Shown here in pieces: positions 8,178-17,356 of a DNA stretch of 41,834 nucleotides. Every line of letters begins with the position of its first letter. Position 1 is the first letter of the stretch. Both the position numbers and the translations under genes were made by a program. The DNA comes from an uncultured Truepera sp. Its GTDB lineage: Bacteria > Deinococcota > Deinococci > Deinococcales > Trueperaceae. Where the stretch lies: NCBI GenBank assembly GCA_902806425.1, contig CADCWP010000035.1:1-41834 (forward strand). Direction: 5' to 3'. The notes below the pieces were generated by a model, which had not been told where the DNA came from, made no database searches, and saw nothing but the letters and a program-made list of their open reading frames with translations.

Positions 8178-9617
8178 ATGAAAGACGACAAAAAGATTGG
8201 CACCCAGCAAAAAGCCCTCGAGGTCAACCTCGACCGGAGCAAATACGGAACCTTTGCCGAGATCGGCGCGGGGCAGGAGGTCGTCAGATGGTTTTTTCAG
8301 GCCGGAGCCGCCGCCGGAACCATCGCCAAGTCTATCTCGGCGTACGACATGACCGTTTCGGACGCGATCTACGGGCAGTCACCGCGTTACGTCTCAAGGC
8401 AGCGCCTCGAGACGATGCTCGACTACGAGTACAACTTGTTGATCGAACGGCTCGGCAGCCGGGGAGCCGACACCAACTTTTTCGTTTTCGCCAACACTGT
8501 CGTCGCCCGTGGGTACAAGGCCGGGGGCGAGTATCACGGCTGGATGGGTATCAGCTATCAGCCCGAACCGGGAGCCGAACCCAACCGCATCGTGATTCAC
8601 GTGCGGATGCTCGACAAGGAGACCTTGTCGCAGCAAGAGGCGCTCGGCATCTTGGGCGTCAACCTCATCTACGGGGCGCTCTTTTACCATGACGGCAGTT
8701 CGCCGGATACGCTCATGCGCTGTCTGCTCGATGATCTCTCGGCGGAGCGCATCGAGGTCGATATGATCGCCTTTTCCGGTCCCACCTTTCGCGGTACCGA
8801 TTATCGCCTGATGGCGCTTAAACTCGTGCAGTTGGGTCTTAGCGACGCCGCCATGTTCTCCGCGCAGAGCGAGGTGCTGCAACCGTCCGAAGTGCTTTAC
8901 AAAAAGCCGATCTTGGTCGAACGTGGTTCGTTTCGTCCGGTGACGCACGTCAACTTGGACATGCTCGCGTGCGCGCGTGGGCAGTTTGAAGGGCAGCTCG
9001 AGGCGGACGGGGGCGCTACAGTCGAACTCATGGAGATCACCATGAAAAACCTTATGGCTACGGGCGAGATCGACTACGACGATTTCTTGGCCCGCGCCGA
9101 CGTGCTCGCCGCTACGGGCGCTACGGTGCTGATCTCGAACTACTTCGAGTACTACCGGCTGGCGGCGTATCTGCGGCGCTACACAAAAAAACCCATTGCC
9201 ATCACCATGGGGATTCCGAGCTTGGAAGGGCTTTTTGACGAGTCGTTCTACGAAAACCTCGAGGGCGGCATTCTAGAGTCGTTCGGACGGCTTTTTAAAA
9301 ACGACACCCGGCTTTACATCTATCCGCTCCAGGAAGCCGACACCCACAAGCTCATCACGGTGCAAAAACTCAAGGTCGCGCCGCACCTGCGTAACCTCTA
9401 CGCGCACCTCGTTGAAAACGGCTACATCGAGTCGATTGACTTTTACAACAAGGACTACCTGCACATCTTCTCGCGCGACGTGCTCGCCAAAATCGGAGCG
9501 CACGACGCTTCGTGGAAGGAGATGGTGCCGCCGGGGGTCGCCGCGCTGATCCGCGAACGGCAGCTTTTTGGCTACGCTCCTGAAGCTACACCGGACGCCA
9601 AGGTCACTGCTAACTGA
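8178..9617 (+). CDS. Conserved protein of unknown function (FAEIGAGQEV family)
   Basis: A 479-residue soluble protein. I recognise it as a widely distributed conserved family, marked by YGTFAEIGAGQEVVRWFF near residue 22, SAYDMTVSDAIYG near 55, FVFANTVVAR, YHGWMGISYQ, QEALGILGVNLIYGAFF-like (here GALFYHD), and VLYKKPILVERGSFRPVTHV near 240. In databases it is often given unreliable names, sometimes nucleotide adenylyltransferase-like, and I do not adopt any. It has no signal peptide or membrane helix. ATG at 8178 follows GGGGGAGAG. It is divergent from the LacI operon and followed by an acidic orphan, with 47 nt between them. The reaction it catalyses, if any, is not evident. Confidence 0.85.
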   Translation: MKDDKKIGTQQKALEVNLDRSKYGTFAEIGAGQEVVRWFFQAGAAAGTIAKSISAYDMTVSDAIYGQSPRYVSRQRLETMLDYEYNLLIERLGSRGADTNFFVFANTVVARGYKAGGEYHGWMGISYQPEPGAEPNRIVIHVRMLDKETLSQQEALGILGVNLIYGALFYHDGSSPDTLMRCLLDDLSAERIEVDMIAFSGPTFRGTDYRLMALKLVQLGLSDAAMFSAQSEVLQPSEVLYKKPILVERGSFRPVTHVNLDMLACARGQFEGQLEADGGATVELMEITMKNLMATGEIDYDDFLARADVLAATGATVLISNYFEYYRLAAYLRRYTKKPIAITMGIPSLEGLFDESFYENLEGGILESFGRLFKNDTRLYIYPLQEADTHKLITVQKLKVAPHLRNLYAHLVENGYIESIDFYNKDYLHIFSRDVLAKIGAHDASWKEMVPPGVAALIRERQLFGYAPEATPDAKVTAN

Positions 9618-14561: not shown

Positions 14562-16031
14562 TCAGCTTTCGGCGAGTTCGGGGGTCAAGGTCTCCTCACT
14601 AGGGGACTCGGTACGCTCAGCCAGCGCCGCGTTCAAGATGTGCTCTATCGCCCCCTCGACGAGCGTGTCGAAGTTTCCGGCTTCGATGATCGGCACGCCT
14701 TCGGCTTTGGCCTGCGCGGCGCAAAAGTCTTGGATCATGCGAATCTCGTCGAAGTGCGCCAGGTAGTGCTCGCGGTGGCGGCGGGAGTGCGTCTGCACCT
14801 CGCGGACCCCGAAATAGCTCTGGTGCAGCTCAGGGTCGGAGACCGTCAGCACCAGTTCGATGACCGTAGCCCCCTCGAAACCGTCCAGGGGGATAAATCC
14901 CGGTACCAGATGGATGCCCTCCATCACGATAGAACTCGCCTCCTCGACGCTACGGCTGATTATCGCGTGCAGGGGCGCAGTGAGCTGCTGCACCTGCCGC
15001 TGAAAGCCGCGCACGACCCGTTTACGTTTAGGTTTGGGGTTTTCCGAAGGGAGCAGTTCGGCGCGCCACGCGGTAAAGCTCGAGGTGTGCAGCTCCGGGC
15101 TCAGTTCGGGGCTGATAAGTGAGCGCAGCGCCTGTCGGATGGCGTCGGTCGAGACGATGCGCGGCAGCCCCAGGCGGTACGCCAGGGCCGAGGCCAGGTT
15201 TGATTTGCCGACCCCCGGCGCGCCGCCGATAAGGATGATCAGCGGCCTTTCAGGCCGCCGCAGCGCGCGCAGCAGTTCGTAGCGGCGGACGAACTCCTCA
15301 CCGGCCTCTTGGAGCAGAAGCCGTTTGACGCTCGCCCGCACCGCAGAGACTGGCAGCTCGCGCTCCCCGAGCCGCCAGAGCATCACCTCGGCGCGTTTGG
15401 CGAGTTGGTGTGACAGCTCCGGGCCAAGCCCCAGAGCCATCAGCGACTGGGCCAAGATGCCCCTCGAGTACGGTACCCGCACGCCGTCCCGTTGCCGCAC
15501 CCACAGCTCCGAAGGTTGTCCCTGCGCCGCCTCGAAACGCGCCCGCGCCTCGTGCCCGTAGCGCGCCCCGACGGCCAGCGCCGTCTGCCGCGCCAACTCG
15601 GGCGGGGTGATAAGGTCCGACCCGCCCCGCCGCAGCTCCTGCTCGATCTGCCGCGCCAGCGCGCTCGCCTCCTTAAACGAGTAGCCCTGCTTCTCTAGCG
15701 ACCCGGCCAGGTTGCGGCGCGAGAAGGGGACCTCGGCACCCCCTTCGTCTCTCACCTTGAGGGGCGCGAAAGGTGGCGGCTGCCCCCTAAAACGCACCGC
15801 GGCGTCAGGGCCGTGCGCCTCCTCGACAAGCTCCCCTAAGGTATTGACCAGGGCCGCAAGCTTGACCTCTTTGGCATTTTTCTGCCGGTAGTGTTTTTCG
15901 AGCGCGCGGGCCAGCCGGATCGCCTCGTCGGTCAGCAGGCCCGCCCCCTGAAGCGACTCGACGACCGTCCCCAGGTTGAAGGTGACCTTGTCGTCGGCCC
16001 GCACTACCTTAAAACTGTTTTTCACCCTCAC
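14562..16031 (-). CDS. 2-phosphoglycerate kinase with three ATP-cone-like modules
   Basis: A 489-residue protein. The C-terminal half is a P-loop kinase: IILIGGAPGVGKSNLASALA (265-284) with Walker A GGAPGVGKSN, IVSTDAIRQALRS after it, and IVMEGIHLVPGF further on, as in archaeal-type 2-phosphoglycerate kinase, which makes 2,3-bisphosphoglycerate from 2-phosphoglycerate and ATP. The N-terminal half contains three tandem, diverged ATP-cone-like units at about residues 6-80, 90-165 and 175-255. Units two and three both show V-P-[FY]-S-R-x-[IL]-L-A-x-SL. These are nucleotide-sensing regulatory domains, and family members usually have fewer. The start is GTG at 16031; a GTG two codons later is possible. 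A cDPG synthetase partner is not in the window. Confidence 0.8.
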   Translation of the reverse strand: MRVKNSFKVVRADDKVTFNLGTVVESLQGAGLLTDEAIRLARALEKHYRQKNAKEVKLAALVNTLGELVEEAHGPDAAVRFRGQPPPFAPLKVRDEGGAEVPFSRRNLAGSLEKQGYSFKEASALARQIEQELRRGGSDLITPPELARQTALAVGARYGHEARARFEAAQGQPSELWVRQRDGVRVPYSRGILAQSLMALGLGPELSHQLAKRAEVMLWRLGERELPVSAVRASVKRLLLQEAGEEFVRRYELLRALRRPERPLIILIGGAPGVGKSNLASALAYRLGLPRIVSTDAIRQALRSLISPELSPELHTSSFTAWRAELLPSENPKPKRKRVVRGFQRQVQQLTAPLHAIISRSVEEASSIVMEGIHLVPGFIPLDGFEGATVIELVLTVSDPELHQSYFGVREVQTHSRRHREHYLAHFDEIRMIQDFCAAQAKAEGVPIIEAGNFDTLVEGAIEHILNAALAERTESPSEETLTPELAES

Positions 16032-16083: not shown

Positions 16084-16689
16084 TTAGGGGGCGGGTTGGC
16101 GCGGCGCGTGGGGGCCGATGATACTCAAGAAGTCCTCTAAGATGTTGCCGGTCACGCCCCAGATCAGCCGCTCCTGCTCGGCGCTGCGGTGCGCGTAGGA
16201 GTAGACCACGCGGCGCTGACCCTCCAACTGCCTGGTCTCTCGTTCCGGACGGATCGCCAAAAGCTCCACGAGGGGGATGGTAAATGTTTCGGCGACCTCT
16301 CCGGGGTTGGGCTTTACCACCTGCGGCCACTCGAGGACGCCCACAAACGGCGTCACCACATAACGTGCGGGCGACGGGTGATCGTGCAGCCTGCCTAAAA
16401 GTGCTGTTTCGGAAACCTCCAAACCTGTTTCTTCAAACGTCTCTCGCCTCGCAGCCCCCGAGGCGCTCTCCCCGAGCTCGAGCCGTCCCCCCGGAAAGGC
16501 GATCTGTCCCGCGTGGTTCAAGAGACCGCTGCTCCGCACGGTGAAGAGCAGGTGCAGCCCGTCGGCGGCGCGCAGCACGGGAACCAGCACGGCGGCGCGG
16601 CGGAAGCCGGGAAAGTCAAGTGTCTCGTGGGGCCGCGCCCCCAAATCTTTACGTAACGCGCTAAAGAGCGCGTTATAGTCAGGAGTCAC
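16084..16689 (-). CDS. Nudix hydrolase, probable CoA pyrophosphatase (NudL type)
   Basis: A 201-residue Nudix protein. The box GGRLELGESASGAARRETF followed by EETGLE fits GX5EX7REUXEEXGU. It is preceded by LLNHAGQIAFPGG, the extra motif that marks the CoA-pyrophosphatase branch, which cleaves CoA, especially oxidised CoA, into 4'-phosphopantetheine and 3',5'-ADP. The start is GTG at 16689 with no clear ribosome-binding site. It lies between mazG and the 2-phosphoglycerate kinase gene on the same strand, and all of them act on nucleotides or phosphorylated metabolites. The substrate is inferred from the motif. Confidence 0.85.
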   Translation of the reverse strand: MTPDYNALFSALRKDLGARPHETLDFPGFRRAAVLVPVLRAADGLHLLFTVRSSGLLNHAGQIAFPGGRLELGESASGAARRETFEETGLEVSETALLGRLHDHPSPARYVVTPFVGVLEWPQVVKPNPGEVAETFTIPLVELLAIRPERETRQLEGQRRVVYSYAHRSAEQERLIWGVTGNILEDFLSIIGPHAPRQPAP

Positions 16690-16738: not shown

Positions 16739-17356
16739 TTACAACCCGGCGCGGGCGTCGGCGGCCCTTCGCAAGGCCAGTTCGGGGTCCACTCCGGCGG
16801 CGCGGGCGTAGTCGACGACCGCTAAAAGAAGTTCACCGACGGCCTCTTCGGTTAGCGTGGGTTGGGTGGGCTCCAGCGCCCTCACCACAGCCTCCGCCCC
16901 ACCCGGCTCCCACCCCAACTTTTTGCCCAACTCGGCGGCGCGCATAAGCGCGGGCAGGCCGCGTGGTACCCGGTCGGCGGGAGACAGCTCGGTTCCGCCC
17001 CGCTCCTCACGCTTGATCCGGTCCCAGTTGCGCTTCACCTCATCCGCGCCTGTCACCTGCACCCCCTCGAAGATGTGCGGGTGACGCCGGACGAGCTTGC
17101 CGACGATGCTCGCCTCGATGTGCTCATACCCGAAGGTCCCAGCCTCCTCCGCGACAACCGCGTGGAAAGCAACCTGTAAGAGCACGTCCCCGAGTTCGTC
17201 GGCCATGATCATGGGGTCGGCGGTAGCGAGGGCGTCTACGGCTTCGGCGGCCTCCTCGAGCAAGTAGGGCCGCAAACTCTCGTGCGTCTGCTCGCGGTCC
17301 CAGGGGCAGCCGTCCGGGGCGCGAAGCCGTCTCATCGTCTCTAAAAGTTTCTTCAT
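16739..17356 (-). CDS. mazG: MazG-type nucleoside triphosphate pyrophosphohydrolase
   Basis: A 205-residue single-domain MazG. Typical landmarks are LRAPDGCPWDREQTHESLRP near residue 11, YLLEEAAEAVDAL near 31, DELGDVLLQVAFHA near 53 (the EExxE and ExxD magnesium-binding helices) and KRNWDRIKREER near 108. It hydrolyses (d)NTPs to monophosphates and pyrophosphate, cleaning the nucleotide pool and influencing ppGpp signalling in some bacteria. It is shorter than the two-domain Escherichia coli enzyme (about 263 residues). The ATG lies six bases after a TAAACT box. Confidence 0.93.
   Translation of the reverse strand: MKKLLETMRRLRAPDGCPWDREQTHESLRPYLLEEAAEAVDALATADPMIMADELGDVLLQVAFHAVVAEEAGTFGYEHIEASIVGKLVRRHPHIFEGVQVTGADEVKRNWDRIKREERGGTELSPADRVPRGLPALMRAAELGKKLGWEPGGAEAVVRALEPTQPTLTEEAVGELLLAVVDYARAAGVDPELALRRAADARAGL

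Follow-up and report, generated by a model that had tools for sequence, protein, structure and literature searches.

A 2-phosphoglycerate-kinase-like protein of Deinococcota with three ATP-cone-fold units ahead of its kinase domain

The archaeal-type 2-phosphoglycerate kinase (2PGK), of which we take the Methanothermus fervidus enzyme to be the type, is represented by the curated model NF003259 (PRK04220), whose length of 306 positions leaves room for one ATP-cone and points to a one-cone form in archaea. A 2005 paper described COG2074 2PGKs as common to Thermus, Deinococcus and archaea and, in its passage on the family, as not then found in other bacteria (PMC1274311); the term ATP-cone does not occur in its main text. 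Cyclic 2,3-diphosphoglycerate (cDPG) is placed exclusively in hyperthermophilic methanogens in the relevant passage of a 2023 paper (PMC10690619) and in certain hyperthermophilic methanogens in that of another (PMC12136491). Passages elsewhere report cDPG synthetase (cDPGS) in thermophilic ammonia-oxidising archaea (PMC7554672, PMC5797428) and discuss cDPG as a store of carbon, phosphate or energy (PMC1224877). As to phosphoglycerate mutases, the relevant passages of PMC2964296 state that the cofactor-dependent enzyme (dPGM) requires 2,3-bisphosphoglycerate (2,3-BPG) and that an archaeal-type iPGM occurs in Deinococci.

The ATP-cone (PF03477) is a domain of ribonucleotide reductase (RNR) and of NrdR. 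According to the sections of PMC9110341 that treat the domain, the inner site of S. coelicolor NrdR comprises K50, R51 and E56, with V48 and K62 also required, the loop from hairpin to helix contacts adenine, and ATP-cones act through oligomer contacts too. A literature search linking ATP-cone with phosphoglycerate kinase returned, judged by title, unrelated matches only, and the phrase 'three ATP-cone' was not found among the matches listed for ATP-cone. Rice LPA1, which we presume to be related to the protein studied here, appears in literature on 2-phosphoglycerate kinase.

Three ATP-cone-fold units and a 2PGK-type kinase domain

The gene under study lies in a window of 41,834 nucleotides (the whole stretch of DNA that was analysed) from an uncultured Truepera sp., and its parts were placed as follows.

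14562..16031, minus strand (16031->14562): 2-phosphoglycerate-kinase-like gene, 489 aa, GTG start at 16031
15786..16010, minus strand: ATP-cone-fold unit 1, residues 8-82 (profile, 27.2 bits, and AlphaFold2 model)
15522..15761, minus strand: ATP-cone-fold unit 2, residues about 91-170 (profile, 29.2 bits at 96-167; AlphaFold2; VIA-align)
15255..15509, minus strand: ATP-cone-fold unit 3, residues 175-259 (profile, 63.0 bits at 183-259; Pfam; VIA-align)
14607..15245, minus strand: P-loop kinase domain, residues 263-475 (full-length AlphaFold2 model)
15201..15227, minus strand: Walker A motif GGAPGVGKS, residues 269-277

Over residues 5-483 of 489, the top curated model for the window protein was NCBIfam NF008994 (PRK12337, 2-phosphoglycerate kinase; 492 positions), at 572 bits (E 8.7e-172) against a curated cut-off of 603, a score that does not reach equivalog membership. 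A preliminary description of the gene as a 2PGK was thus right as to family and length, with the proviso that the protein stays below this cut-off; it gave no strand. Because NF008994 covers residues 5-483, the long form is already contained in a curated model. The archaeal-type model NF003259 gave 294 bits and aligned with residues 181-474 only, which hold the kinase domain and the last cone; N-terminal to these the window protein carries two further cones.

The kinase domain resembles adenylate, UMP/CMP and gluconate kinases (Foldseek and VIA-align; Z up to 15.8), and a whole-protein phmmer comparison with PDB chains gave weak matches only (best E 0.038). In 131 one-, two- and three-cone enzymes, a set that leaves out the Gammaproteobacteria, 34 kinase-domain positions were conserved at 95% or more and a single site, position 353, was group-specific. 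The window protein carries the catalytic positions common to the 2PGKs that adjoin cDPGS. Because the catalytic domain is conserved, the conversion of 2PG to 2,3-BPG remains the best reading of its reaction, and judged from sequence the most likely one. The window genome (G000) has a single kinase match. Kinase-only paralogs that have no cones were observed in G037, a genome of the window's genus, and in G069 (L062:8582-9343 and L063:7874-8542, both on the minus strand), with NF008994 as their nearest model (222 and 143 bits). Elsewhere in the window, a 479-aa open reading frame on the plus strand (8178-9617) had no NCBIfam match at E 0.001.

The profile used to locate the cones drew on two sources only, the single cones of actinomycete enzymes and the last cones of those from Desulfurobacteriaceae, and contains no Deinococcota sequence. 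When residues 1-172 were shuffled 2000 times, 1670 of the shuffles gave some match to it, the best at 6.4 bits as compared with 27.2 and 29.2 bits for units 1 and 2, which rules out a chance or compositional origin of the repeats. The Pfam ATP-cone model recognised cone 3 over its cut-off (34.7 vs 25.8 bits); cone 2 did not reach that cut-off (19.7 bits) and cone 1 was silent. AlphaFold2 models of residues 1-259 (32 sequences; pLDDT 92.6) and of the full-length protein (pLDDT 85.7) repeated one element order three times, which in cone 1 consists of strands at 8-11 and 14-17, helices at 20-29 and 34-50, a strand at 55-57 and helices at 58-73 and 75-82. The ATP-cone fold, a beta-hairpin with a helical bundle, was found in each unit, in the case of cone 1 solely from the element order of the model.

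Structural comparison by VIA-align matched cone 3 (174-259) to the ATP-cones of NrdR and RNR, with Z up to 12.7 for NrdR (rmsd 2.4, 85 aligned), and cone 2 (91-173) to the human RRM1 cone (Z 9.3, rmsd 2.4, 77 aligned). For cone 1 this comparison of the three-cone model listed no separate ATP-cone match, and the assignment of that cone therefore rests on profile and model. The top Foldseek matches of residues 1-259 were P. aeruginosa NrdA (5im3, E 2.4e-5), which presumably carries two ATP-cones, and then NrdR. At the level of sequence, a profile of 42 cones compared with PDB sequences up to E 10 retrieved no RNR or NrdR chain (its best match, a diol dehydratase at E 0.0022, was taken as chance), and hhalign gave the cone profiles a probability of at most 1.04% against an NrdR profile. 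As there is no direct sequence link to solved ATP-cones, the connection is drawn from the fold and, for cone 3, from Pfam. Taken together, these comparisons confirm that the window protein consists of three ATP-cone-fold units ahead of a 2PGK-type P-loop kinase. The preliminary description had placed three ATP-cone-like units at residues of about 6-255, and the profile found them at 8-82, 96-167 and 183-259; the structure prediction that it had called for gave three like units, and one cone plus unrelated helices was not seen.

Distribution of the kinase and order of its cones

Rather than being a peculiarity of this genome, the three-cone kinase proved to be phylum-wide. NF008994 matched in 108 of 111 Deinococcota genomes, in all 85 genomes that were 90% complete or more and contaminated to no more than 5%, and in 37 of 39 Trueperaceae genomes; its cut-off was reached in 64/111. 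Cones were counted in 133 distinct proteins from 160 loci, the two kinase-only paralogs and 25 repeats having been dropped. By a local profile, all 81 distinct Deinococcota proteins had three cones (31/31 in Trueperaceae and 50/50 in other Deinococcota). Relatives outside the phylum were not recovered by a contig scan with the window protein alone as query and were found by an alignment-based scan; among the best 80 of its 232 relatives, two cones were present in Desulfurobacteriaceae (6/6) and Gammaproteobacteria (2/2) and one cone in Actinomycetota (44/44), a sample beyond which other phyla and cone numbers may exist. The window protein is of the same family as the COG2074 enzymes in the passage of PMC1274311 cited above, and relatives are now seen, among those best 80 of 232, in Actinomycetota, Desulfurobacteriaceae and two Gammaproteobacteria too.

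We compared the cones with one another by hhalign. Every pair among the six Deinococcota cone groups matched with a probability of 97.3-99.9%, and the cones of Trueperaceae paired with those of other Deinococcota with scores of 112 (cone 1 to cone 1), 111 (cone 2 to cone 2) and 182 (cone 3 to cone 3). The single actinomycete cone had Deinococcota cone 3 as its best partner (score 158-161), and the unit 3 profile in turn matched best with that actinomycete cone and with the third cone of other Deinococcota. Since the cones pair by position, the three-cone array predates the split between Trueperaceae and other Deinococcota, with cone 3 as the common module. In a kinase tree of 110 tips, in which 25 of the 50 non-Trueperaceae Deinococcota proteins were used, the Deinococcota joined with support 1.0, with both kinase-only paralogs and the two Gammaproteobacteria nested among them, and the two-cone Desulfurobacteriaceae stood as sister to it with support 0.585. 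With this low support for the sister and an interrupted Deinococcota group, the tree does not establish that cones were gained once and step by step. The Gammaproteobacterial two-cone enzymes (L154 and L160, of which one was read) depart at P263, D399, H403, R431 and D455, with D399R, H403L and R431W at near-invariant sites; these enzymes may not be 2PG kinases and could have a different function.

Two genes lie upstream of the kinase in the window.

16084..16689, minus strand: NUDIX hydrolase gene, immediately upstream and separated from the start of the kinase by 52 bases
16739-17356, minus strand: MazG-like gene, upstream of the NUDIX gene

MazG-like, NUDIX and kinase genes form a conserved row in Trueperaceae. 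The window's NUDIX gene scored 95 bits with the CoA-pyrophosphatase model NF007980, below the cut-off of 134. Of 37 Trueperaceae loci, six of them repeat fetches, 35 have a NUDIX gene ahead of the kinase in the same orientation (29 of 31 distinct proteins); one of the two loci that lack it, L003, has only 276 bases upstream. MazG follows beyond NUDIX in 23/37 loci, a count limited by short flanks.

Synthetase, mutases and the possible fate of 2,3-BPG

In contrast to the archaeal-type system, the window genome has no match to cDPGS, nor has any other of the 111 Deinococcota genomes (0/111). The same query was positive in 7/7 actinomycete control genomes, in one of them at 29% identity. We therefore rejected cDPG as the product, and the link to a thermoprotectant that had been suggested for this gene found no support in the search for the synthetase, a check that the suggestion had called for.

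Actinomycete loci present a different arrangement, in which a gene of ~460 aa adjoins the kinase (42/44), upstream and on the same strand in 41, L155 being irregular. In locus L129 this neighbour is cDPGS by its match to the solved M. fervidus cDPGS (417 bits, E 7e-124).

L129:2569-3954 beside L129:3854-4876: example of an actinomycete pair

The pair of cDPGS and one-cone 2PGK, usually after a metallophosphoesterase gene, was observed in Actinomycetota at L114-L122, L124-L153 and L155-L159. In the class of L129, Thermoleophilia, 72 of 149 genomes have the kinase and 75 of 149 have cDPGS (kinase matches from 190 bits upward; six weak-match genomes and one weak cDPGS genome were dropped). All 72 kinase-bearing genomes have cDPGS, 71 of them within 2.5 kb. 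One-cone enzymes that always occur with cDPGS (72/72) would therefore serve the step from 2PG to 2,3-BPG, and the catalytic domain shared with them suggests the same step for the window enzyme. With the query used for Deinococcota, no cDPGS was found in 101 genomes of the class that includes the two-cone Desulfurobacteriaceae, 21 of which have a two-cone kinase at least in part, or in the two Gammaproteobacterial genomes with a two-cone enzyme; the association between cone number and cDPGS is to be counted over some four lineages and not as hundreds of separate events. Among the papers listed we found no account of a bacterial cDPG gene pair, in a search from which a spelling without the comma may have dropped some papers.

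With respect to mutases, the window genome encodes a cofactor-independent enzyme, GpmI (648.6 bits), and its matches to GpmA (TIGR01258) are all below the cut-off, by which the supply of a mutase cofactor was ruled out for this genome. Over cut-off among the 111 Deinococcota genomes were ApgM in 59, GpmI in 33 and GpmA in seven. Two genomes, G066 and G072, were observed to have a strong GpmA (407 and 402 bits) and no ApgM match, so that 2,3-BPG may serve there as cofactor. Since GpmI is present, no GpmA match exceeds its cut-off and cDPGS is absent, the window genome fits neither of the known uses of 2,3-BPG.

Cone motifs and the proposed role of the cones

A motif shared by units two and three, V-P-[FY]-S-R, had been noted in the preliminary description and was seen in the translation at both places.

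15717..15731, minus strand: V-P-F-S-R motif of unit 2, residues 101-105
15462..15476, minus strand: V-P-Y-S-R motif of unit 3, residues 186-190

Cone 1 of the window protein reads V-T-F-N-L at residues 16-20 (T-F-N-L-G, without the basic residue of P-F-S-[KR]-G). In the 50 non-Trueperaceae Deinococcota proteins, each of the three cones retains the S-[KR]-G of P-F-S-[KR]-G, the basic site being K in 50, 47 and 50 of cones 1, 2 and 3 and R in three of cones 2, and the F site of cone 1 is F or L; identity between cones within one of these proteins is 31-37%. In Trueperaceae the basic residue is present in 30/31 cones 3, 28/31 cones 2 and 0/31 cones 1. The motif probably maps to the adenine-contacting loop of NrdR.

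Although the fold is alike, the 2PGK cones mostly replace the residues of the S. coelicolor NrdR site and carry P-F-S-[KR]-G. When compared in the register of the conserved F, K50, R51, E56 and K62 were majority residues in no 2PGK cone group, save R51 in both Gammaproteobacterial first cones. Minorities of Trueperaceae have R at the R51 position (12/31 cones 1 and 8/31 cones 2) and, in cones 2, E at E56 (10/31) and K at K62 (6/31); cone 3 of the window protein has R at the R51 position. As a control, 19 of 20 Trueperaceae NrdR sequences fit the full K50/R51/E56/K62 pattern, of which only K62 is an independent count since the control pattern presupposes K50, R51, E56 and F58; the alignment holds 20 of 24 loci, the four left out by the pattern including the window genome's own NrdR (L174). 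To us P-F-S-[KR]-G suggests another kind of ligand or contact site, one that remains under selection, in two of the window protein's three cones; we do not take it as evidence of ATP binding. Graded nucleotide control by the array, as had been envisaged, is thus unproven, with the NrdR residues mostly absent and the basic residue of cone 1 lost in 31/31 Trueperaceae.

On balance we favor, as slightly more likely than not, an explanation in which the protein is an ancestral Deinococcota long-form 2PGK whose cones gate the kinase and whose 2,3-BPG is an end metabolite. The window enzyme would phosphorylate 2PG with ATP to 2,3-BPG. Cone 3 is the module common with the one-cone enzymes, as profile comparison shows, and cones 1 and 2 are further tandem cones that position-wise matching places before the Trueperaceae split. 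The cones would most likely gate the kinase, or its assembly state, through a ligand at the junction of hairpin and helix 1, the site of P-F-S-[KR]-G, with cones 2 and 3 as candidate sensors in the window protein and cone 1 as a putative degenerate spacer. Given no cyclisation by a relative of the known synthetase and no mutase need, 2,3-BPG would be an end metabolite, perhaps serving as a store of phosphate or energy, as a solute or as an effector.

It is possible, if short of probable, that the cones are structural or oligomerisation modules that sense no nucleotide, the extra ones only stabilising or tethering the kinase. The scarcity of the NrdR inner-site residues, the degenerate cone 1 of all 31 Trueperaceae and the oligomer contacts of ATP-cones (in the sections of PMC9110341 on the domain) would fit this, whereas a pure scaffold accords poorly with a motif kept in three cones of 50 proteins despite 31-37% identity, located by our mapping at what would be the adenine-contacting loop (as described in the same sections of PMC9110341), and with the R that the window's cone 3 keeps at the R51 position. 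An unlikely alternative on the catalytic side is a shift of the Deinococcota enzyme to some other small phosphorylated substrate, in which case it would be no 2PG kinase. No user of 2,3-BPG was found (no cDPGS in 111 genomes, mutases mostly cofactor-independent), and the superfamily includes a kinase named mevalonate-3-phosphate 5-kinase (NF008996, 83 bits on the window protein), so substrate can drift; against such a shift, the 34 near-invariant positions are common with the cDPGS-adjacent enzymes, one site only is group-specific, and the top models are NF008994 and NF003259.

The two established destinations of 2,3-BPG fare worse. Provision of cofactor to a cofactor-dependent phosphoglycerate mutase is very improbable: dPGM needs 2,3-BPG (PMC2964296, in its passage on the enzyme) and TIGR01258 exceeds its cut-off in 7/111 genomes, but the window genome has GpmI and no GpmA over cut-off, and ApgM and GpmI prevail across the phylum (59 and 33 of 111). 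A part in making the thermoprotectant cDPG, such as the enzyme has in hyperthermophilic methanogens, is extremely improbable, since the first step may be that of the archaeal pathway (relevant passages of PMC10690619 and PMC1224877) but cDPGS is absent from all 111 genomes under a query that works in 7/7 controls.

Returning to the gated kinase with 2,3-BPG as end metabolite, we tentatively extend it, as a rather doubtful proposal, to Deinococcota and Desulfurobacteriaceae together. In both, a dedicated kinase gated by several cones would yield 2,3-BPG as an end product in its own right, neither mutase cofactor nor substrate for cDPG. Cone number is higher where cDPGS is missing (one cone with it, two or three without), as if extra allosteric modules took the place of a downstream sink in keeping the draw on 2PG and ATP in check.

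Many genomes of one actinomycete class have both genes of the cDPG pathway, as against the placement of cDPG exclusively in hyperthermophilic methanogens in the passage of PMC10690619 that concerns it. The series of one, two and three cones offers a natural set for testing the tandem addition of allosteric modules and bears on whether ATP-cones can function through a binding motif that differs from the one in NrdR and RNR. For the organisms themselves, a heat- and radiation-resistant phylum keeps, near-universally, a predicted 2,3-BPG kinase without a known consumer of its product.
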